Source of the DNA: a virus
Length of the DNA: 21,872 nucleotides
IMG/VR virus record: IMGVR_UViG_3300042448_001725
Location: 1-21,872 of that record
Strand: one strand, 5' to 3'
A program made the translations under genes and the position numbers. Of this stretch, positions 4,601 to 20,289 are shown one piece after another. The notes under the pieces are model-generated. The model did not search any database, had not been told where the DNA came from, and saw nothing but the letters and a program-made list of their open reading frames with translations. The stretch's first letter is position 1; each line of letters starts with the position of its first letter.

Positions 4601-4807
4601 ATGAAAAATGAAATGAAGTTTTTTAAAGTGTTTCTAATGTGGTTAGGTTTTATCACAATCGGAACAATGTTCGGTGAGTATGTGGTAAGTAGAGAAGTAA
4701 ACGGATTCCTCCAACTTTTATGTTTCGTTGGTGTTGTTGGGGTCCTTATGTATGTAATAAATGAAACAATAAAATTATTTAACAAAAAAAAAGAAAAAAA
4801 TGATTAG
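4601..4807 (+). CDS. Small membrane protein, two transmembrane helices
   Basis: 68 residues with hydrophobic segments at about 8-24 and 36-53, a short polar loop, and a lysine-rich cytoplasmic tail. Overlaps the start of the SPFH-like gene by eight bases (ATGATTAG), so translation is probably coupled and the two proteins may act together at the membrane. Function unknown. Confidence 0.75.
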   Translation: MKNEMKFFKVFLMWLGFITIGTMFGEYVVSREVNGFLQLLCFVGVVGVLMYVINETIKLFNKKKEKND

Positions 4808-5747
4808 TACTTTAATTTTTATTTTAGGATTGGTAATTGCAGGATTTATTGCATTTACAACAAGAGACCGAATGTATGTAACAGGAACTGACAGATGGGG
4901 TGATAGTAAAGAGATGTTTAACACAATGTGGATACTAAAACCAATTGGTATTTTTGTCTTAGGTATTATAATTAGTGGTATCCAACCTTTTGCACTTGAA
5001 AGAGTTGATGCGGGACACGTTGGTATCAAAGTTAATTTGACGGGAGACAAAAGAGGTGTTTCAAGTTATGAATACAAAACAGGTTGGGTAATGTATAATA
5101 CTTGGACAGAACAGATGTTAGAGTTTCCTACATTCCAACAACATATTGAATATAAAGATCAGACTGTTATCACAAAAGGTGGATTTGCAGCAACAATTAA
5201 ACCAAGTTTTAACTACTCACTAAAACCAACAGCAATTGGTAATATGTTTGAGAACTTGAGATTGGATATAAAACAAATTGAACAAGGATGGTTAATGAAC
5301 GCAATTGTCTCTTCAGTAAATGACGTGGCTAATAAATGGGAAGTGGATGCGATCTTTAATAAAAGAGAAGAATTTGAGGCGGCCATTGTTGCTGAGTGTA
5401 ATAAAAGATTATCTAAATGGTTTGAAGTATCACAGTTAAGAACTAATATCACACCGCCAGAGTCTCTTCAAAAGGCAATTGAAGGTAAAACAAAGGCGGT
5501 TCAGGAGGCACAGGCGGCGACACAACGTAAGTTAGTTGCAGAAGCCGAAGCTCAAGAAAAAATCGCAATCGCTCGTGGTGATTCGGCAAAAGTTATAATT
5601 GACGCACAAGCTTTGGCCTTGGCAATGAAATTAAAACAAAAAGAAATAACTCCTCTTTATGTTGAATATTTGAAAGCACAAAGTTGGGACGGAAAACTTC
5701 CTACAACAGTTGCGGGTGGATCAGGAACATTTTTAAACATTAAATAA
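4800..5747 (+). CDS. SPFH/prohibitin-like (band 7) membrane protein
   Basis: 315 residues. Two hydrophobic N-terminal segments (about 3-19 and 46-62) are followed by an SPFH-type core: VDAGHVGIKVN (70-80), a strand-rich part, then LRTNITPPESLQKAIE. A long Ala/Glu/Lys-rich helix with the typical AxAEAEAQEKI repeat (about 230-290) follows. SPFH proteins form large membrane-associated ring or cage assemblies that scaffold proteases and lipids, and the phage copy could remodel or protect the host membrane. The gene is the longest in its cluster and contains more GC-rich codon runs than its neighbours (around 5375-5390 and 5500-5520), a hint of separate acquisition. Confidence 0.85.
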   Translation: MISTLIFILGLVIAGFIAFTTRDRMYVTGTDRWGDSKEMFNTMWILKPIGIFVLGIIISGIQPFALERVDAGHVGIKVNLTGDKRGVSSYEYKTGWVMYNTWTEQMLEFPTFQQHIEYKDQTVITKGGFAATIKPSFNYSLKPTAIGNMFENLRLDIKQIEQGWLMNAIVSSVNDVANKWEVDAIFNKREEFEAAIVAECNKRLSKWFEVSQLRTNITPPESLQKAIEGKTKAVQEAQAATQRKLVAEAEAQEKIAIARGDSAKVIIDAQALALAMKLKQKEITPLYVEYLKAQSWDGKLPTTVAGGSGTFLNIK

Positions 5748-8143: not shown

Positions 8144-8830
8144 ATGAAAAACATACATTTATTACCAACAGAAAAACCAAGTAGGTTAACTAAACCTGGT
8201 GGGAGTTCATCCATTAAACTTTATACTAATGGATTAACTAACACACCAAAAGGACATTGTAAGAATTATCATTTGTACATTACTTCTGATGAAGAAATTA
8301 AAGAAGGAGATTGGTGTTTGAATACACTTAAAAACATTATATACAAAAAAGACAATCTACCTATGGATATAGTGTGGAAAAAAATCATCCTAACAACAGA
8401 CCAATACTTAATTACAGATGGTGTTCAAGCTATTGATGATGAGTTCTTGGAATGGTTTGTTAAGAATCCAAGTTGTGAGGAAGTTAAATTAAAAGATTCA
8501 AAAAAAGTTAAAGAACACATTTGGGATGGTTCAAATAATGGGGAAATAATTTGGGAAAAAGAAATCATCATTCCACAAGAAGAACCTAAACAAGAAACAC
8601 TTGAAGAGTATTCTAATGGACTTTACAAACAAAGTTTAAAAGATGATATAGATTTATCTTTTTATGATGGCGTTAGATTAGGGGCTAATTACCAAGCTGA
8701 AAGAATGTATAGTGAGGAAGAACTAAAAAATGCAATTGAAATATCTGTAGCTAAAGCACTTGGTGTAATGAGCTTTACAATAAATGAAGAATCGTTTGAA
8801 CAATTTAAAAAGAAGTACCATATAAAATGA
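8144..8830 (+). CDS. Modular phage protein, MKNIHLLPTEKPSRL family (copy A)
   Basis: 228 residues. The N-terminus MKNIHLLPTEKPSRL, the later LYITSDEEIKEGDW, VQAIDDEFLEWFVKNPSC and IIIPQEEPKQETL blocks belong to a family common in phages of Flavobacteria and in metagenomes, of unknown function. The C-terminal part (DDIDLSFYDGVRLGANYQAERMY.. and ...SFEQFKKK) differs from that of the paralog at 12189, so the family swaps tails after QETL. The final FEQFKKK segment is also found at the end of the gene at 13653. Own promoter. Confidence 0.85.
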   Translation: MKNIHLLPTEKPSRLTKPGGSSSIKLYTNGLTNTPKGHCKNYHLYITSDEEIKEGDWCLNTLKNIIYKKDNLPMDIVWKKIILTTDQYLITDGVQAIDDEFLEWFVKNPSCEEVKLKDSKKVKEHIWDGSNNGEIIWEKEIIIPQEEPKQETLEEYSNGLYKQSLKDDIDLSFYDGVRLGANYQAERMYSEEELKNAIEISVAKALGVMSFTINEESFEQFKKKYHIK

Positions 8831-9165: not shown

Positions 9166-9669
9166 ATGAATAAAGAAACAAAATTTAAAGTGGGGGACAA
9201 GGCTCACAAACCAAAAGGTTATAAATTTCCTTGTACAATTGTAGGTGTATTTGAAACAATTAATGGCGACATCCGGGTTGTTGGTGAAATGGATGAATAC
9301 GGATTATTACACATCTTCAACGAAAATCAATTGGAACATTATGGTAAAGACGAACCAGACTTATTGAATGAGGCTTATAAGAATTACTTCATTAAAAAAA
9401 GTTCTGAAACTGGGCCTTTTGGGATTGCTGGTATAATACCAACAAAAGAAGAATTTATCTATGATTGTAAAACAGATCCGGAGTTCTCTGAAAAGTGGGG
9501 ACTAACCATTGAAGAACGAGAGTTGAGTGAGGATGAAAGGTATGATTTGTGTGCGGCACGTAAAAGTAAGATGACCGCAATATCAGAAGAAGATTATATT
9601 AAGTATAACATCCCAACCAAACTAATCACAATAACATACAACGATAAAACAATAGAAAGTTATGAATAA
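9166..9669 (+). CDS. Tandem paralog 1: SH3-like domain fused to SEKWGLTIEER module
   Basis: 167 residues. Residues 5-56 look like a small SH3/KOW-like beta barrel (FKVGDKAHKPKGYKF..IVGVFETINGDIRVVGEMDEYGLLHIF). The rest is the module shared with the next two genes: LLNEAYKNYF, P-x-KEEFI, KTDPEFSEKWGLTIEERELS..ERY and the end IPTKLITITYNDKTIESYE. Only this copy carries the barrel. The stop overlaps the next start by eight bases (ATGAATAA). Function unknown; a family of Bacteroidota phage accessory proteins. Confidence 0.8.
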   Translation: MNKETKFKVGDKAHKPKGYKFPCTIVGVFETINGDIRVVGEMDEYGLLHIFNENQLEHYGKDEPDLLNEAYKNYFIKKSSETGPFGIAGIIPTKEEFIYDCKTDPEFSEKWGLTIEERELSEDERYDLCAARKSKMTAISEEDYIKYNIPTKLITITYNDKTIESYE

Positions 9670-9681
9670 AGAACAACAAGA
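9610..9681 (+). repeat. 72-bp direct repeat, copy 1
   Basis: Bases 9610-9681 are identical to 9935-10006. Each copy spans the last 19 codons of one paralog, the ATGAATAA junction and the first codons of the next. A diverged third copy ends at the thyA start (10317-10378). Confidence 0.9.
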
Positions 9682-9994
9682 TATAATTTTAGATGTTTAT
9701 AGAGAACATTGTTTAGAACAGTCCAAATATTTGACACATGGGGGTACAATACAAGAATTCATCAACAAATGTAAAACAGATACAGAGTTCTCTGAAAAGT
9801 GGGGACTAACCATTGAAGAACGAGAGTTGAGTTTTGAAGAAAGGTATAAAATAGCTCTCCCAATATGGAAAGAAAAATACGGTCTTTTAGCTAATATGAT
9901 GGTTCCTACTAATGTAGATAACACACCTTATAAAATCCCAACCAAACTAATCACAATAACATACAACGATAAAACAATAGAAAGTTATGAATAA
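9662..9994 (+). CDS. Tandem paralog 2: SEKWGLTIEER module protein
   Basis: 110 residues, lacking the N-terminal barrel of paralog 1. Starts MNKEQQDIILDVYREH, contains CKTDTEFSEKWGLTIEERELSFEERY and ends IPTKLITITYNDKTIESYE. The middle differs from its neighbours (LANMMVPTNVDNTPYK). Start and end both lie in the 72-bp repeats, so the gene looks like one unit of a tandem amplification. Overlaps eight bases at both ends. Confidence 0.8.
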   Translation: MNKEQQDIILDVYREHCLEQSKYLTHGGTIQEFINKCKTDTEFSEKWGLTIEERELSFEERYKIALPIWKEKYGLLANMMVPTNVDNTPYKIPTKLITITYNDKTIESYE

Positions 9995-10006
9995 AGAACA
10001 ACAAGA
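9935..10006 (+). repeat. 72-bp direct repeat, copy 2
   Basis: Identical to 9610-9681; the spacing is 325 bases. It contains the same ATGAATAA stop/start junction. Confidence 0.9.
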
Positions 10007-10376
10007 ATTATTGGATGAGGCTTATAAGGCATTTGAAAAGTGGTACAACGAACATTCAGGTAAGGAAGATTATACAGGTTACTTTGTCCCGGACAAAGAA
10101 GAATTTATTAGACTAATCAAAACAGATGATCTGTTCTCTGAAAAGTGGGGATTAAAAATTGAAGAACGAAAGTTGAATTTAGATGAACGAGCTAAACTCC
10201 ACCCAAATCCTGAAAATTTCTATGATATTCACGGAACATTTTCAATTAGTAATAGTATTGAAGATAGTAACTTTCCAGATAAAGATTGGTTACACGAACA
10301 ATTTGATAAACACAATATCCCAACCAAACTAATCACAATAATATACAACGATAAAAAAATTGAAAGTTATGAATAA
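9987..10376 (+). CDS. Tandem paralog 3: SEKWGL module protein
   Basis: 129 residues, the most diverged copy: MNKEQQELLDEAYKAFEKWY, VPDKEEFIRLIKTDDLFSEKWGLKIEERKLNLDER, an insertion rich in Asn/Asp/Ser, and the end IPTKLITIIYNDKKIESYE. Its N-terminal LLDEAYK matches LLNEAYK in paralog 1 better than paralog 2 does. The stop overlaps the thyA start by the same eight bases (ATGAATAA). Confidence 0.8.
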   Translation: MNKEQQELLDEAYKAFEKWYNEHSGKEDYTGYFVPDKEEFIRLIKTDDLFSEKWGLKIEERKLNLDERAKLHPNPENFYDIHGTFSISNSIEDSNFPDKDWLHEQFDKHNIPTKLITIIYNDKKIESYE

Positions 10377-11199
10377 AGCCGATAAATATTATATCCAAAA
10401 TCTATCAAATATTATGTCAGATGGATCTTGGGATGAAAATCCAAGACCAAAGTATTCTGATGGAACACCGTCACATTCAAAGTTTATAACACAAGTATTT
10501 GAAGAATATGACATATCAAAAGGCGAGTTTCCAATCCCAACATTAAGAAATACCGCAATTAAAATTGGTATTAAAGAAATTTTATGGATATACCAAAAAC
10601 AAACTTCATCACTTGATGTTGCTCGTGAGATGGGTATTAACTGGTGGGAAGAATGGAATATTGGAGATAATAGTATTGGTCAGAGATATGGCGCAACAAT
10701 CAAAAGATATGATTTGATGAATAAACTACTTGATGGATTAGTTAATGATCCATTTGGTAGAAGGCATATTATTAGTATGTATCAATATGTTGATTTAGAA
10801 GAAACAAATGGTTTATTTCCTTGTGCTTATGAAATACTCTGTTCGGTTAGAAAAGTTGATAAAGATAAGGTTTTGGATATGACGTTGGTCCAAAGATCAA
10901 ACGATTATTTGGTTGCGGGTTATATTAATAAAGTGCAATATTTGGCTTTACAAATGATGGTTGCGGGACATTGTGGTTATAAAGTTGGTAAGTTTTGTCA
11001 TTTGGTTCAGAATCTACATATATACGATAGACATTTTGATGGTGTTTCAGAACTTTTAAACAAGGAACCATTAGACACACAACCAAAGTTAATTTTAAAG
11101 GAAAATAAAAACTTCTACGACTATACAATTGATGATTTTGAGATTACCGGTATTGACGGTATAACTAAAATAAATTCAAAATTAGAGTTGGCAATTTAG
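10369..11199 (+). CDS. thyA: Thymidylate synthase (ThyA type)
   Basis: 276 residues from ATG 10369, chosen over a TTG nine bases upstream because it recreates the ATGAATAA overlap of the preceding genes. ThyA transfers a methylene group from 5,10-methylene-THF to dUMP, giving dTMP and DHF. Visible: phosphate-binding DPFGRRHIIS (Arg131-Arg132), catalytic Cys152 in LFPCAYE, the QRSNDYLVAGYINKVQYLALQMMVA block that binds dUMP, and NLHIYDRH. The C-terminus LELAI takes the place of the usual PVAI. The N-terminal arginine loop is unusual (DGSWDENPRPKYSDG), as in some phage enzymes that accept modified substrates. No intron is seen. Confidence 0.92.
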   Translation: MNKADKYYIQNLSNIMSDGSWDENPRPKYSDGTPSHSKFITQVFEEYDISKGEFPIPTLRNTAIKIGIKEILWIYQKQTSSLDVAREMGINWWEEWNIGDNSIGQRYGATIKRYDLMNKLLDGLVNDPFGRRHIISMYQYVDLEETNGLFPCAYEILCSVRKVDKDKVLDMTLVQRSNDYLVAGYINKVQYLALQMMVAGHCGYKVGKFCHLVQNLHIYDRHFDGVSELLNKEPLDTQPKLILKENKNFYDYTIDDFEITGIDGITKINSKLELAI

Positions 11200-11209
11200 G
11201 TTTTTCGTT

Positions 11210-11242
11210 GGTTTCCATATATTTATATAATATACGGAAACC
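11210..11242 (+). promoter_or_regulatory. Hairpin with embedded TATTTATA motif directly before the homing endonuclease start
   Basis: GGTTTCC (11210-11216) pairs with GGAAACC (11236-11242); inside, TATATT pairs with AATATA, one mismatch apart, giving about 13 base pairs and a five-base loop. It ends one base before the ATG at 11244, so in a read-through mRNA it would hide the ribosome entry site. TATTTATA (11220-11227) lies in the inner part: transcripts beginning there would lack the 5' arm. Confidence 0.65.
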
Positions 11243-11243
11243 G

Positions 11244-12074
11244 ATGGATTATTTGAAAATTTATAATAGTATTGTTGAAAGAGGTAAAAATAGAACTATC
11301 ACTGGATACACAGAAACACATCACATCATACCAAAATGTCTTGGGGGGTCAAATGATGTTTGGAATTTAGTTGTTTTAACCGCTAGAGAACATTTCATCT
11401 GTCATTTACTTTTATGTGAAATTTACCCTAAAAACACAAAATTAAGATTTGCATTATGGAATATGTGTAATGTTAAGAGAGAATACCAAGAAAGACATAA
11501 AATAAATTCAAGGTTATATGATTTAATAAAGGAAGATTATTCTAAAAGTATAAGAGGGACTAATAATCCAAATTTTGGTAAAAAACTTACAGAAGAACAA
11601 AGAAACAAAATTAGTTTATCAAGAATTGGTAAATATGGCGGTGAAAAAAATTCATTCTACGGAAAAAAACATACAGATGAGACACTAAAAATATTAAGAA
11701 AAAAAAGTTCTGATCACAGACACACTGACAAAACAAAAGAAAAAATGTCAATCGCACACAAAAATAAGTTGTGGTTTTATAATGATAAAGGAGAACATTT
11801 AAGGACATTACCTGATGATCCAAGAATTATTGAAGAGGGATGGAAAAAAGGTAGAATTGGTGGTAAAGAAATATCAAAATTAGCGAATGAAAAAAGAAAA
11901 GAAAAATACGCATTGATAGAACCACCAAAACCACAAGCTAAAAAATGTATGATTGATGGTTTGTTATTTAATTCTGCGGTTGAAGCTGCAAAATATTTTA
12001 ATATGCCAGACAGTAGTGTAAGAGATAGGATAAGAAATAAAAACTTCCCAACTTGGAATTGGGTATGTCAATAG
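11244..12074 (+). CDS. HNH homing endonuclease with NUMOD repeats
   Basis: 276 residues from ATG 11244; the TTG at 11208 would start within the hairpin. An HNH nuclease core is at residues 26-54: HHIIPKCLGG (His26/His27), N37..N41, and REHFICH (His50, His54). NUMOD3-type DNA-binding repeats follow (GTNNPNFGKKLTEEQRNKIS and GEKNSFYGKKHTDETLKI). A C-terminal NUMOD1-type helix-turn-helix (FNSAVEAAKYFNMPDSSVRDRI) closes the protein. Such enzymes cut an allele lacking their gene and spread by repair. It is free-standing, placed immediately behind an intact thyA, a classic site for phage homing genes. Confidence 0.9.
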   Translation: MDYLKIYNSIVERGKNRTITGYTETHHIIPKCLGGSNDVWNLVVLTAREHFICHLLLCEIYPKNTKLRFALWNMCNVKREYQERHKINSRLYDLIKEDYSKSIRGTNNPNFGKKLTEEQRNKISLSRIGKYGGEKNSFYGKKHTDETLKILRKKSSDHRHTDKTKEKMSIAHKNKLWFYNDKGEHLRTLPDDPRIIEEGWKKGRIGGKEISKLANEKRKEKYALIEPPKPQAKKCMIDGLLFNSAVEAAKYFNMPDSSVRDRIRNKNFPTWNWVCQ

Positions 12075-12188: not shown

Positions 12189-12884
12189 ATGAAAAACATA
12201 CATTTATTACCAACAGAAAAACCAAGTAGATTATTTTACAATAAAAAAGATTCTATATTTACAATAGATAATGATTTTGAAAATGTAATAGAAGAAGATT
12301 GGTTTCAAGATTATAATATCTACATCACTTCCAATGAAGAAATTAAAGAAGGAGATTGGTGTTTATGTTCTGAAGAATTAGTCCATAAAGTAGTAGAAAT
12401 TAAATCAAATATAGGTATAATTAGATTTCAAGATGGAGTTACTGAAGTATTAAATGCTTGCAAAAAAATCATTCTAACAACAGACCCAGAGTTAATTGCA
12501 GATGGTGTTCAAGCTATTGATGATGAGTTCTTGAATTGGTTTGTAAAGAATCCAAGTTGTGAGTGTGTTGAGATTGAAAGAATGGAAGATGGTAAATACA
12601 TTGATAGATTTGCTGATGGTACTATTAAAGAAGGTATTTACGAGAATTACAAAATCATCATTCCACAAGAAGAACCTAAACAAGAAACATTAAATAAAAT
12701 AAATAATATGGGCGAAGAAATTAAAAAACAGATAAATCTGTTAGAAGAAGAACAAACCAGAGTAAAACAATTTATAAATGAAAATAATTTTAATTGTACC
12801 ACGGCGCCTTGGGTGATCGCTAAACAATATAGAGATGAAATTAAAAAACATATTGGAATTTTAAAAATGAATTTAGAAAATTAG
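12189..12884 (+). CDS. Modular phage protein, MKNIHLLPTEKPSRL family (copy B)
   Basis: 231 residues. The first 41 bases are identical to those of the gene at 8144. It shares the blocks IYITSNEEIKEGDW, GVQAIDDEFLNWFVKNPSC and IIIPQEEPKQETL at the same order and spacing. After QETL it carries an unrelated coiled-coil tail (NNMGEEIKKQINLLEEEQTRV..., ending ILKMNLEN). The family is thus an N-terminal domain of about 160 residues with exchangeable tails. Function unknown. Own promoter, duplicated with the gene. Confidence 0.85.
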   Translation: MKNIHLLPTEKPSRLFYNKKDSIFTIDNDFENVIEEDWFQDYNIYITSNEEIKEGDWCLCSEELVHKVVEIKSNIGIIRFQDGVTEVLNACKKIILTTDPELIADGVQAIDDEFLNWFVKNPSCECVEIERMEDGKYIDRFADGTIKEGIYENYKIIIPQEEPKQETLNKINNMGEEIKKQINLLEEEQTRVKQFINENNFNCTTAPWVIAKQYRDEIKKHIGILKMNLEN

Positions 12885-14638: not shown

Positions 14639-15145
14639 ATGAGCGAAAAACAGACGTATGATTATGGATGTGTGATGTTGTATTTTGATTTTCCTGAAAT
14701 CAAAAACCTACATTCATTAATTGATGAAGAAGATATATACACCGAAGATGGTGATAGGAGTTTTGGTTTAGAAGATGAACCACATACAACATTACTTTAT
14801 GGGCTACACGATGACGTAACAGAAGATGATGTTAGAGATGCTATTAATGGTTTTGATTATGGAACTTGTAGAATCACAAATCCATCTTTATTTGAAAATG
14901 AAAACTATGATGTTTTAAAATTTGATGCAAGTGGTCCAAACCTACACGAAACAAATTTTGAACTAAAAAATTACCCACACACGACATCTTTTCCTAACTA
15001 CCATCCCCATTTAACAATCGGTTATTTAAAACCAGGTATGGGTAAAAAATATGTAAATAAACTAAAAGGATTACAGTTTAAATTGGATCCGACCCATGTT
15101 GTGTATTCTATGGCAAATGGGGACAATAAAAATATTGAAATATGA
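14639..15145 (+). CDS. 2H phosphoesterase-like protein (possible anti-CBASS Acb1 type)
   Basis: 168 residues. Two HxT motifs define the 2H phosphoesterase fold: His49-Thr-Thr51 in EPHTTLLYGL and His124-Leu-Thr126 in YHPHLTIGYL, 75 residues apart. Each sits at the end of a hydrophobic strand. The family includes 2'-5' RNA ligases, cyclic phosphodiesterases and phage Acb1, which degrades the cyclic nucleotides of CBASS defence. The length and the motif spacing are close to those of Acb1 (about 150 residues, 69 between motifs in T4), and PHxTLLYG is a typical Acb1-like first motif. Substrate unproven. Four bases overlap with the next gene (ATGA). Confidence 0.8.
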   Translation: MSEKQTYDYGCVMLYFDFPEIKNLHSLIDEEDIYTEDGDRSFGLEDEPHTTLLYGLHDDVTEDDVRDAINGFDYGTCRITNPSLFENENYDVLKFDASGPNLHETNFELKNYPHTTSFPNYHPHLTIGYLKPGMGKKYVNKLKGLQFKLDPTHVVYSMANGDNKNIEI

Positions 15146-16194: not shown

Positions 16195-16788
16195 ATGAAA
16201 TATTTTATTACTTTTATTTTTATTTTACTAGTTACGTTTTACAAATCACAATGTAACGGAACACAATCTTTTACATTAACACCCCCACCTGTTGGAGGAA
16301 CTTATTTACCCGGACAAACTGTAACCATGTGCTATACTATGAACGGATATACCCAAGCCGGAACAAATTGGATTGAAGGATTTGATTTGACATTAGGACC
16401 TGGTTGGGCATCAGTTACTCCTCAAACAGCACCTGCAAATTGCGGAGGAAATGCAACAGGAGGTCAATGGGTTTGGAGAACTTCAGTAACATCAACCACA
16501 ACACCGATAGTAACTGTAGGTCCTGGATATTTCTTTGACTTGTCGGTTGACGGTAACCCCGGTAATGATTTTGGTGATGCCGGATCATGTGTTTGGACAT
16601 TTTGCGTAACATTAACTGTTGCAAACGTATGTACACCACAAAGTCTATTATTACAAGTAACACCAGGATCTGATGGTATGTGGGGTAGTTATACAAGTAG
16701 CACTTGCGACTTAGCAACACCATTCACCGTATTTAACGGAACAATAAACGTAGTCCCAATTGTTTTGGGACCAATAAGCCATAATTAA
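16195..16788 (+). CDS. Secreted protein 1 of a T9SS-associated operon
   Basis: 197 residues. A clear signal peptide (MKYFITFIFILLVTFYKSQ), cleaved near SQ-C, precedes a Gly/Pro/Thr/Ser-rich beta-sandwich-like domain with many cysteines (six or more), typical of exported Bacteroidota adhesin modules. The end is GPISHN, echoed by the next gene's SPIQHN. Six bases separate it from the next gene. The base composition is less AT-rich than neighbouring genes. The domain resembles repeats of large gliding-motility surface proteins but I cannot name a family. Confidence 0.8.
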   Translation: MKYFITFIFILLVTFYKSQCNGTQSFTLTPPPVGGTYLPGQTVTMCYTMNGYTQAGTNWIEGFDLTLGPGWASVTPQTAPANCGGNATGGQWVWRTSVTSTTTPIVTVGPGYFFDLSVDGNPGNDFGDAGSCVWTFCVTLTVANVCTPQSLLLQVTPGSDGMWGSYTSSTCDLATPFTVFNGTINVVPIVLGPISHN

Positions 16789-16794
16789 AAAACT

Positions 16795-17376
16795 ATGAAA
16801 AAATTATTAATCTCTTTAATGTTATTGACCTCATCAATTTCATTTTCACAATTAACAACAACAAACCCCGATACGGTTTGTTATCAATCAACCTCTCTAT
16901 CAACCTATACAGTACCATCTGTTGGCTCAGGAACTTATACTTGGACTGTTACTGCGCCTGGAGTTATTACTGCAGGTCAAGGAACTAATTCTATAAGTGT
17001 CAATTGGTCAGCCGCGGCACCTGGATTAATCACAAATGGTGTGTCTGTAACATATTCTTCACCACCACCAGCTAACTGTCCCGCAACACCTGTTAACTTA
17101 AATGTATTAATATATCAAGTAATACCAACAATCACAGCATTAGGACCATTTTGTGAATCTGATCCTTGTGTGACTTTAGTCGGATCTCCTGTAGGTGGAG
17201 TATGGTCAGGTCTTGGTGTTTCAGGAAATCAATTCTGTCCTGATAACGTAACAAATGGAACGAACGCAACATCAACAGTATCATATACTTTTAGTTCTGC
17301 TGGATGTACATTCTCTACTTCTGTTGTTGTTCCTGTTTATGGCACACCAACATTATCACCTATACAACATAACTAA
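16795..17376 (+). CDS. Secreted protein 2: PKD-like domain protein
   Basis: 193 residues. Signal peptide MKKLLISLMLLTSSISFSQ with the SFSQ cleavage end common in Flavobacteria. Then a PKD-like beta-sandwich (GTYTWTVTAPGVITAGQG and ISVNWSAAAPG) and a second beta module with cysteines (CESDPCVTLVGSPVGGVWSG.. and GNQFCPD..). It ends SPIQHN, as the previous protein ends GPISHN. The adjacent gene begins directly after the stop. Such modules usually precede a C-terminal T9SS domain in one polypeptide; here they are separate genes. Confidence 0.8.
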   Translation: MKKLLISLMLLTSSISFSQLTTTNPDTVCYQSTSLSTYTVPSVGSGTYTWTVTAPGVITAGQGTNSISVNWSAAAPGLITNGVSVTYSSPPPANCPATPVNLNVLIYQVIPTITALGPFCESDPCVTLVGSPVGGVWSGLGVSGNQFCPDNVTNGTNATSTVSYTFSSAGCTFSTSVVVPVYGTPTLSPIQHN

Positions 17377-17943
17377 ATGAAATTCATTTTTTTCATATTA
17401 TTTTTATTTATGTCCTTAGTTACTTCGGCACAACAACTTATTGAATTGTGTGCCGGAGAAACTAAAACTGTTACGTACTTCTCAACATCAACGGGTGACG
17501 GAACAACGTCATGGTTAGTTAATGGTATTGTGTATAACACAGATGAAATAACTTATACATATAATAATGAAGGAACTTACAATATTGTTGTAAGAAGAGA
17601 AAATGGACCTTGCTATGTTGAACAAACATTACAGGTTGTGGTTTCTGAATGTCCCGGTGTGACTTATTGGGTTCCGAATTGTTTTACTCCCGATGGTAAT
17701 GAACATAACCAACTATTTGGACCTATGATGATTGATGGGTTTGATATAAATGGTTTTGAGTTTATTGTTATTAATAGATGGGGTAATATCGTATGGGAAT
17801 CTCAAGACCCTAATGGGAAATGGGACGGAACATATCAAAATAAAATGTGTACAGATGGTGTGTACATTTGGAAATTAACCTTTAATGTCTTTGGTAATGA
17901 CGATAAGATTACTGACCATGGACATTTAACTATCTTGAGGTAA
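17377..17943 (+). CDS. Secreted protein 3 with T9SS type-B C-terminal (gliding motility, CHU_C) domain
   Basis: 188 residues. Signal peptide MKFIFFILFLFMSLVTSAQ, then a PKD-like domain (20-90: GDGTTSWLVNG and GTYNIVVRREN) and a full gliding-motility-associated C-terminal domain (about 98-188). The landmarks of the latter are VPNCFTPDGNEHNQLFGP, INRWGNIVWES, WDGTYQ, DGVYIWKL and the end GHLTILR. This domain (TIGR04131/CHU_C) targets proteins to the type IX secretion system and the cell surface. So the product should be exported by Sec and T9SS of the infected host or lysogen. Its 3' end overlaps a minus-strand gene by 18 bases. Confidence 0.9.
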   Translation: MKFIFFILFLFMSLVTSAQQLIELCAGETKTVTYFSTSTGDGTTSWLVNGIVYNTDEITYTYNNEGTYNIVVRRENGPCYVEQTLQVVVSECPGVTYWVPNCFTPDGNEHNQLFGPMMIDGFDINGFEFIVINRWGNIVWESQDPNGKWDGTYQNKMCTDGVYIWKLTFNVFGNDDKITDHGHLTILR

Positions 17944-18111
17944 TTCTGTAATTAAACCCATCTCTATTAATTGATCAATAGAGTTATTTTTAGGGGCCTT
18001 TAGATAATAGTTCTCACCATCATTTCTAAAAAAACACCAACCTGATAATACCGTATTTAAATGATTATACGTTTCTTTATCTTTTACTTTATATACTTTT
18101 AATCCCACCAT
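17926..18111 (-). CDS. Small hypothetical protein (minus strand)
   Basis: 61 residues: MVGLKVYKVKDKETYNHLN, SGWCFFRNDGENYYLKAPK and a helical end (SIDQLIEMGLITEL). A compact alpha/beta domain. Overlaps the upstream minus gene by 13 bases, supporting coupling, and its 3' end overlaps the secreted operon's last gene tail-to-tail. Function unknown. A hairpin CTCTATT/AATAGAG (17962-17983) followed by TTATTTTT in the + direction lies inside it and may stop + transcription. Confidence 0.75.
   Translation of the reverse strand: MVGLKVYKVKDKETYNHLNTVLSGWCFFRNDGENYYLKAPKNNSIDQLIEMGLITELPQDS
17962..17991 (+). terminator. Possible terminator of the secreted operon within the opposing gene
   Basis: CTCTATT (17962-17968) pairs with AATAGAG (17977-17983) and TTATTTTT follows on the + strand, 20 bases after the stop of the secreted operon. 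The stem is AT-rich, so termination is uncertain. Confidence 0.4.
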
Positions 18112-18680
18112 CGTTCAATTTTTTGTTCTAATAATTTAAATAATAATTTTCTTGCTTTTTCTTGATTGTGTTTAGCAACTAAATGACAAAGATTTCTTTT
18201 TTCTAAATCATTACCATTTTCTTTTAAAACTTTTCTAACACTTGACGGATATTTTTTTAAAAACTCATCATAATTTTCATTTAGAACTGTCATTTTCATC
18301 TCCTTTAAGTTTGGATTATCTTCGACTGGAATAAAATCAAATTTAGTTTCACTATAATCAAAATCTTCCATACCGTAATATTCTTCTTTTACTCTTTCAA
18401 GTAAGTTAAGAGCAATTGTCATATCACGATTATCTCTATCTATATCAGTGTGACGATTTGCGCTGATGATTTCTTGTCTTTGATGTTCTATCTTTTTTTG
18501 TAGTATTGTGTAGATATGCCAAGAGTCCCAATCTCTATCTTTATATAAAGTTGGTACCCATCTGAATATGTTTTTAACTCCGGTTAGAAAGTATCTTATT
18601 CTCCAATGTAATTTGTTAAATAGAACCTCTCTACTCCAAGCAGAATCATTTGGTACTATCAGTTTTTCGTAATTTTTCAT
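18099..18680 (-). CDS. Conserved phage protein of unknown function (minus strand)
   Basis: 193 residues. It contains blocks I recognise as a widespread protein of large tailed phages: WRIRYFLTGVKNIFRWVP, YKDRDWDSWHIYTILQKKI, NRHTD..RD..MTIALNLLERVKEEYYG, FDEFLKKYP, and the end KLLFKLLEQKIERWWD. It is tryptophan-rich, helical and charged. Function not known. Its own host-type promoter TATATTTG is at 18700-18707 on the minus strand. Confidence 0.88.
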   Translation of the reverse strand: MKNYEKLIVPNDSAWSREVLFNKLHWRIRYFLTGVKNIFRWVPTLYKDRDWDSWHIYTILQKKIEHQRQEIISANRHTDIDRDNRDMTIALNLLERVKEEYYGMEDFDYSETKFDFIPVEDNPNLKEMKMTVLNENYDEFLKKYPSSVRKVLKENGNDLEKRNLCHLVAKHNQEKARKLLFKLLEQKIERWWD

Positions 18681-18864
18681 TTTGTTCTTCTTTGTATTGC
18701 AAATATACGGAAAAAATTACTAAAAAGTTAACAAAAACACATAAAAAAGTTTCTAATAAATAATGCCAATCAGTCTGTGTCATGGACACATGAGTCCCAA
18801 ACCACATAAATGAACCATACTTATTCATTATTTGTACTACTAAATACTTCAAAAATTTAATCAT
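18646..18864 (-). CDS. Small membrane protein (minus strand)
   Basis: 72 residues, with a long hydrophobic segment (about 36-55, LLETFLCVFVNFLVIFSVYLQ) followed by a charged tail (YKEEQNEKLRKTDSTK). The tryptophan- and histidine-containing segment (MWFGTHVSMTQTDWHY) precedes it. Its last 35 bases overlap the next gene and contain that gene's promoter region. It starts 37 bases from the divergent gene at 18901. Confidence 0.65.
   Translation of the reverse strand: MIKFLKYLVVQIMNKYGSFMWFGTHVSMTQTDWHYLLETFLCVFVNFLVIFSVYLQYKEEQNEKLRKTDSTK
18700..18707 (-). promoter_or_regulatory. Bacteroidota-type promoter on the minus strand (TATATTTG)
   Basis: Read on the minus strand the bases are TATATTTG, an exact TAnnTTTG match, 19 bases upstream of the start at 18680. 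It would drive 18680 and the gene ending at 17926. Confidence 0.55.
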
Positions 18865-19593: not shown

Positions 19594-20289
19594 ATGAAAA
19601 TGAGAATAACTTTTATATCTGATACCCACACCAAGCATGATAAACTTAATAGTTTTTTACCTGGTGGTGATTTGTTATTACATGCGGGGGATTTATCTAG
19701 TAGAGGTTATATCACTGAACTTGAAAACTTCTTCAAATGGTATGATAAAATAGATAACTACGACACTAAGGCTTTCATATGTGGTAATCATGACTTTGGG
19801 TTTCAAGACGACTACGAAAAACTTAAAGGGATATTAACTGGTTATAAAACCATAGACTATTTACAAGATGATTGGATGGGTGTTGGTGAAGACATAGATA
19901 ACATGGTTAAAATATGGGGTAGTCCTTGGCAACCTGAATTTCATAATTGGGCATTCAATCTTCCTCGTGGTGAAAAAATAATAGAAAAATGGAACTTGAT
20001 ACCAAAAGATGTTGATATACTTGTAACTCACGGACCCGCCTTTGGTAAATTGGATTATGTTCGTTATGATGCTTTGAATGTTGGTTGTGAAGACTTGTTA
20101 GTTAAAATACAAGAAATAAAACCTAAAATACATGTTTGTGGTCACATACACGAAGGTTACGGTTATGTTTTTGATGGTGACACTCACTTTATAAATGCTG
20201 CAGTTCTTAACGGACGATATGAATTCCGAAATAAACCAATAACTGTTGATTGGGATCCTAAAACAAACGAATTAGAATTTGTTGATTAA
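19594..20289 (+). CDS. Metallophosphoesterase (MPPED-like)
   Basis: 231 residues (229 if it starts at the ATG at 19600). All calcineurin-like metallophosphoesterase motifs are present in order: FISDTHTKH, LLHAGDLSSRG, FICGNHDFGF, VTHGPAFGKLD and CGHIHEGYGY, followed by the FINAAVLNGRY strand. It resembles the MPPED1/MPPED2 class of small metallophosphoesterases (GDLT..G, GNHD, THGPP, GHIHE). Two metal ions are bound by Asp, His and Asn of these motifs, and the substrate could be a phosphodiester or nucleotide. Its stop lies in a bidirectional hairpin shared with the convergent gene. Short distance between -7 element and ATG suggests a leaderless message. Confidence 0.9.
   Translation: MKMRITFISDTHTKHDKLNSFLPGGDLLLHAGDLSSRGYITELENFFKWYDKIDNYDTKAFICGNHDFGFQDDYEKLKGILTGYKTIDYLQDDWMGVGEDIDNMVKIWGSPWQPEFHNWAFNLPRGEKIIEKWNLIPKDVDILVTHGPAFGKLDYVRYDALNVGCEDLLVKIQEIKPKIHVCGHIHEGYGYVFDGDTHFINAAVLNGRYEFRNKPITVDWDPKTNELEFVD

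Follow-up and report, generated by a model that had tools for sequence, protein, structure and literature searches.

The question raised by this locus is why a virus should encode, side by side, three proteins of exported type, the last of which carries a domain characteristic of the type IX secretion system (T9SS), and what these proteins might do together. The window, that is, the whole stretch of DNA analyzed here, comprises the 21,872 bases of virus record IMGVR_UViG_3300042448_001725 (positions 1 to 21,872); no tRNA was found within it.

Three Exported-Type Proteins Encoded Head to Tail

Positions 16195-17943 hold three plus-strand ORFs arranged head to tail and encoding proteins of 197, 193, and 188 aa. 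A sequence-only reading of this DNA had described them as an operon of three exported proteins, and the ORFs, their coordinates and strand, and their signal-peptide-like starts are as it proposed. Gene 1 (16195..16788, + strand), the putative tip, encodes a 197-aa exported-type protein that is predicted to form a beta-sandwich and is exchangeable between phages. Its predicted signal peptide (residues 1-18; 16195..16248, +) is followed by Gln19 and Cys20, of which the cysteine is invariant and the glutamine nearly invariant in the family alignment. No Pfam family matched gene 1, a fold search gave no convincing relative in the PDB (best E 1.4e-3, TM 0.32-0.45), and among viral proteins the best match came from Virus NIOZ-UU157 (a GEVED protein, E 1.2e-8). 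Gene 2 (16795..17376, +), the putative connector, encodes a 193-aa exported-type protein with two Ig/PKD-like beta domains; the residue after its predicted signal peptide (residues 1-18; 16795..16848, +), Gln19, is invariant in the alignment. The PKD-like module that had been proposed by eye is supported by a match to PKD_6 (PF19408; 16855..17028, +; E 3.5e-8, 34.1 bits against a cut-off of 25), a domain found in all 24 sampled members of the gene-2 family, while the fold search returned generic Ig/cadherin folds with low TM scores. Gene 3 (17377..17943, +), the putative anchor, encodes a 188-aa exported-type protein in which a predicted signal peptide (residues 1-18; 17377..17430, +), again followed by an invariant Gln19, precedes an N-terminal PKD-like domain and a C-terminal T9SS type B signal. 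Signal peptides were called by sequence pattern (regular expression), and by this measure 23 of 24 members of each of the three families have a signal peptide with Gln at +1.

The C-terminal domain of gene 3 had been read as the gliding-motility type of T9SS sorting domain (TIGR04131). The match to CHU_C (PF13585; 17671..17931, +) exceeds its cut-off (43.3 versus 27 bits), whereas TIGR04131 itself reaches only 30.5 bits on the window protein, below its cut-off of 35. Because CHU_C and, at E<=0.01 (best E 2e-15), TIGR04131 are both matched by every one of the 24 gene-3 proteins sampled, the assignment of a predicted type B signal to gene 3 is sound, and export by the T9SS is predicted from it. 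Type B signals, which share five conserved motifs (A-E), require PorP/SprF-like shuttles, and there is precedent for orphan type B cargo that shares a shuttle (PMC12618676). PorP-like proteins are bound by type B signals for anchorage, and the binding persists (PMC9143113). A linked PorP/SprF-like gene was found in none of 28 phage records, a search in which control genomes were equally silent, and we therefore assume that the shuttle is supplied by the host.

The Operon Is Spread Among Large Phages

Had these genes been confined to bacterial genomes, the window might have been a stray piece of chromosome; instead, 66 distinct gene-2 sequences were present in IMG/VR viral contigs among the matches listed. 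Scans of IMG/VR with the proteins of genes 1, 2, and 3 gave 3 loci, the best 80 of 105 loci, and 57 loci, respectively. The same three-gene operon thus recurs in dozens of viral contigs, and the tip-connector-anchor order holds in nearly all loci on contigs long enough, with all ORFs parsed. Contigs carrying the operon reach 436 kb, a terminase match was obtained for 10 of the 22 operon-carrying records tested, and of 28 records, 27 contain CHU_C, each between one and four times. This spread, the contig sizes, and the terminase matches in viral records indicate that a group of large phages carries the operon. The INPHARED phage collection contains no close relative; its distant matches are LR745206, LR756502, and one 4.2 kb faecal contig. 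LR745206 and LR756502 are phages of huge size (634 and 642 kb) from metagenomes, and each also encodes a very short exported-type protein that is nearly a bare CHU_C domain (L249:838-1218 and L248:509-859; 126 and 116 aa as listed).

The evidence that these are phages is good. As to the host, Gln at +1 after the signal peptide is known as the Q-rule (PMC5837995), and since both the T9SS and signal peptides of this kind typify the Bacteroidota or their superphylum, we infer that the host belongs to this phylum.

Genes 1 and 2 End in a Conserved I-x-H-N Tail

The strongest part of the evidence, and the central new element, is a feature that had been remarked only in passing, namely the similar C-terminal tails of gene 1 (GPISHN; 16768..16785, +) and gene 2 (SPIQHN; 17356..17373, +). 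Across 126 distinct proteins the gene-1 and gene-2 C-terminus is I-x-H-N/D. The histidine is invariant (62/62 gene-1 proteins, 64/64 gene-2 proteins, and all 8 of the replacement tips described below), and in these same 62 + 64 + 8 distinct proteins isoleucine is kept in all but one, which has valine, and the final asparagine in all but 5. In AlphaFold models (pLDDT 88.8 and 83.4) the tails of both proteins lie beyond the secondary-structure elements of the folded domains; that of gene 2 is a coil past the last strand.

The tails are more frequent than chance would give. Among 3839 ORFs from about 120 loci that are not homologous to any of the three genes, 12 end in [IVLM]xH[ND]; these represent 8 distinct proteins, every one of them encoded immediately upstream of gene 2, in the place of gene 1. 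Of the 104 distinct background ORFs of signal-like type, 8 have the tail, and each of these lies in the gene-1 place. A role of the tail as a DNA-level (translation) signal was also considered and was ruled out by codon usage: both histidine codons (CAT 92, CAC 37) and both asparagine codons (AAT 89, AAC 35) are in use, and the tail is therefore selected as protein. Searches of the literature for the tail string, or for T9SS in huge phages, returned nothing relevant and no description of the tail.

Exchange of the Tip and Fusion of the Chains

In eight loci (L032, L037, L045, L059, L063, L068, L072, and L081) gene 1 is replaced by an unrelated ORF, and all eight replacements end in I-x-H-N/D. 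The clearest case is L032, where synteny with the window extends to either side of the operon at up to 96% identity (for example, 89% at 14639-15145 and 84% at 19594-20289), yet the tip encoded is a different protein of 490 aa. The replacement tips differ in their N-terminal parts, of which that of L045 is an ALK/LTK-type glycine-rich domain, the only N-terminal domain recognized among the swapped tips scanned. Their C-terminal parts are more alike: SprB repeats exceed the Pfam cut-off in L032 and L063, and by eye a C-terminal SprB-like repeat is common to most of the swapped tips, so that the types of C-terminal domain bearing the tail are few (gene-1, SprB, and gene-2 Ig). Identity to the window across genes 1, 2, and 3 is 82, 61, and 45% in L041 and 76, 75, and 52% in L029. 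Taken at the level of sequence, gene 1 appears to travel separately. That the tip can be exchanged, whereas connector and anchor are conserved, hints at recognition of variable targets or at evasion.

Single-chain forms of the same modules also exist. In LR745206, a 732-aa protein matches the gene-2 profile (residues 401-557) and then, directly, the gene-3 profile (556-732). The fused paralogues comprise L124 (732 aa) and L242, L243, and L244; the latter three, of 729-816 aa and the same layout, lie in the very contigs that carry the split operons L045, L068, and L037. A chain of 1670 aa in LR756502 combines a gene-1-like part with a CHU_C part. Where chains are fused, the matches to the profiles end before the tail and start close to where the signal peptide ends, or beyond it; therefore, the tail and the additional signal peptide occur only where the chains are separate.

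Split Operons in Bacteroidales

An alignment scan of genomes with gene 2 located its bacterial relatives within long Bacteroidota adhesins; the closest share 30-59% identity over parts of the protein, and their surroundings yielded no relative of gene 1. It had been supposed that such modules form one polypeptide in bacteria and are split in the phage, and this division holds for the window but not as a rule, given that several phages also encode fused forms and that Bacteroidales also encode split ones. In the Bacteroidales split operons (L183 and L265-L271), exported-type proteins carry tails of the form TSxI[YWF]H[NQ], and L183, from a Bacteroidales metagenome-assembled genome, has separate exported ORFs ending in SPIQHN and SGIYHN. 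In L183, L265, L269, and L271 the protein encoded after the tailed ones has a signal peptide and either a PDTVC-type start or a PKD-like domain, and L266 and L267 are arranged as [..IYHQ]-[..IWHN]-[PKD + CHU_C]. The protein in the tip position of L266 (6618-7601, - strand), which ends in TSSIYHQ, contains an Ice_binding domain (PF11999, E 6.2e-40). Since the split, tail-tagged layout is also found in Bacteroidales, the phage operon is a variant rather than an isolated invention.

A stricter tail pattern gave 15 matches versus 2 for controls in 295 Bacteroidales genomes, some of the 15 not being exported ORFs, and none in 395 genomes sampled across the Bacteroidota. A broad spread of the tail across the Bacteroidota was considered and rejected: a first pattern stayed near the control level in 198 genomes, in which only the match in G001 was real.

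A Candidate Three-Subunit Surface Adhesin and Its Alternatives

At both junctions of the operon, a chain bearing the tail precedes a chain that starts with a PKD-like domain, and the simplest model would be docking of tail to domain. We infer from this arrangement that the operon may encode a three-subunit T9SS surface adhesin, made by the infected cell, whose tip and connector dock by means of their tails, a reading to which we give about an even chance. Each subunit would leave the cytoplasm via Sec by its Bacteroidota-type signal peptide with Gln at +1. The distal tip, which is exchangeable, would come from gene 1, the conserved connector with its Ig/PKD domains from gene 2, and the PKD domain with the T9SS type B signal from gene 3. 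The free I-x-H-N tails of genes 1 and 2 would each dock on the N-terminal PKD-like domain of the next subunit, and the resulting order of tip, connector, and anchor would be the one seen where these modules form a single fused chain. By means of its CHU_C domain, gene 3 would then carry the assembly through the host T9SS, with a host PorP/SprF-like protein holding it at the surface, where it might coat or retarget the infected cell, for example by masking receptors against rival phages or by making the cell adhesive. Superinfection exclusion, receptor masking, and effects on gliding had been put forward as possible benefits in the sequence-only reading. To our knowledge, T9SS export of multi-chain complexes through one signal is not established.

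The broader proposition is that the I-x-H-N tail is a new, short, exchangeable docking code, by which Bacteroidota and their phages build fibres from separate chains, the subunits sharing one T9SS signal and the tip being swappable without touching connector or anchor; this we regard as a real possibility that falls somewhat short of an even chance. If it is true, large phages would refit the surface of the infected cell with a fibre that is modular and swappable and is exported by host machinery, the substrates of the T9SS would include multi-chain assemblies joined by a four-residue tag, and I-x-H-N ahead of a CHU_C gene would serve as a sequence marker for such systems in Bacteroidota.

In the main rival reading, which we consider unlikely, the tail would act on its own as a short sorting signal for the T9SS (or the outer membrane), with genes 1-3 exported independently, genes 1 and 2 by the short tag and gene 3 by its classical type B signal, and with a single fibre unnecessary. 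The tag is shared by several unrelated C-terminal domains and always stands at the extreme C-terminus, as sorting signals do; Pfam and TIGR04131 scans found no known C-terminal signal in genes 1 and 2, and the tag is found in Bacteroidales too. However, among the background ORFs the tag is confined to the gene-1 place, and it occurs only upstream of a PKD/CHU_C gene; moreover, it vanishes precisely where the chains fuse. In addition, the known T9SS signals are folded domains inside the last 100 or so residues (PMC12618676, PMC11285876).

It is improbable that phages took up an adhesin operon from the host only recently and carry it as cargo whose selected function in the phage is slight or absent, the tail being a bacterial relic. 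The Bacteroidales genomes with split operons and similar tails would fit such a capture, as would the frequency of related domains in Bacteroidota adhesins, but the bacterial gene-2 matches are partial and showed no gene-1 relative nearby, and in phages the operon is old and diverse, with gene 3 down to 34% identity while the cassette stays intact, the tail strictly kept, and no decay in the sampled cassettes. Less probable still is that these proteins belong to the virion, as components or as decorations, and that the likeness of their signal sequences to those of the host is incidental. Phage structural proteins often contain Ig-like domains, phage particles commonly bear Ig/PKD domains, and the contigs carrying the operon are those of phages; against this, signal peptides with Gln at +1 are kept in all three families, CHU_C is kept in every sampled gene-3 protein, and Sec export is not normal for virion proteins. 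Finally, the notion of a single gene interrupted by stop codons, or of three ORFs joined through readthrough or frameshifting, can be dismissed even though all three share one frame in the window and fused homologs exist, because the relative frame is not conserved across loci (27, 23, and 15 cases for genes 1/2; 49 of 60 in another frame for genes 2/3), a separate signal peptide starts every ORF, and conservation of the ends is strict.

Relation to Known Systems

Among known systems, the operon comes close to the T9SS type B cargo adhesins of Bacteroidota (SprB-like, CHU_C/TIGR04131, with PorP/SprF shuttles), with which it shares a Sec signal peptide, Ig/PKD/SprB modules, and a C-terminal CHU_C, and the fused phage versions have the module order of such adhesins. 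Unlike them, the operon specifies three chains, two of which have the I-x-H-N tail but no T9SS domain. It resembles the Bacteroidales split operons in that tailed signal-peptide proteins precede a signal-peptide PKD protein, which has CHU_C in L266 and L267; in contrast to the phage form, the Bacteroidales tips are larger, the tail consensus is slightly different, and the operons are chromosomal. No published description of these Bacteroidales operons was found in the literature searched. GhpA, the Aureispira grappling hook protein (PDB 9flp), has a CHU_C C-terminus related to gene 3 (E 1.9e-17) but is a bacterial single chain of 5898 aa.

Phage cargo of the T9SS is known from Cryophage, which carries genes for proteins exported by the host T9SS that are highly variable between phage variants, a variability for which its authors suggested superinfection exclusion or competition (PMC7468147). 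Unlike in the window, the proteins exported in the case of Cryophage (an endoglucanase, a glycoside hydrolase, and a PA14 protein) bear sorting domains of type A, and no type B signal, split fibre, or tail was reported (PMC7468147). T9SS type B adhesins are thus already known, as is one case of phage T9SS cargo, of type A. For phages, a split form with tail tags appears to be undescribed in the literature searched.

Other Features of the Window

Three small minus-strand genes encoding proteins of 61, 193, and 72 aa, the last of which looks membrane-bound, occupy positions 17926-18864. They are present in 18 of the 41 loci with enough flanking sequence, with a weak match in L066; in many related phages they lie directly upstream of the operon and are co-directional with it, and in the window, L001, L003, and L032 they lie downstream on the opposite strand. 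Elsewhere, three tandem paralogous ORFs at 9166-10376 have a common C-terminal stretch, PTKLITI-YNDK-IESYE, and two paralogous ORFs at 8144-8830 and 12189-12884 have a common start, MKNIHLLPTEKPSRL; the second of these matches phrog_15656 (E 2.3e-7). Positions 10360-12074 encode an HNH/NUMOD3 homing endonuclease (phrog_655, E 7e-57) that, by eye, adjoins a thymidylate-synthase-like ORF upstream, and positions 4800-5747 encode an SPFH/Band 7 membrane protein (PF01145, E 2.9e-22; phrog_200, E 9.8e-53).
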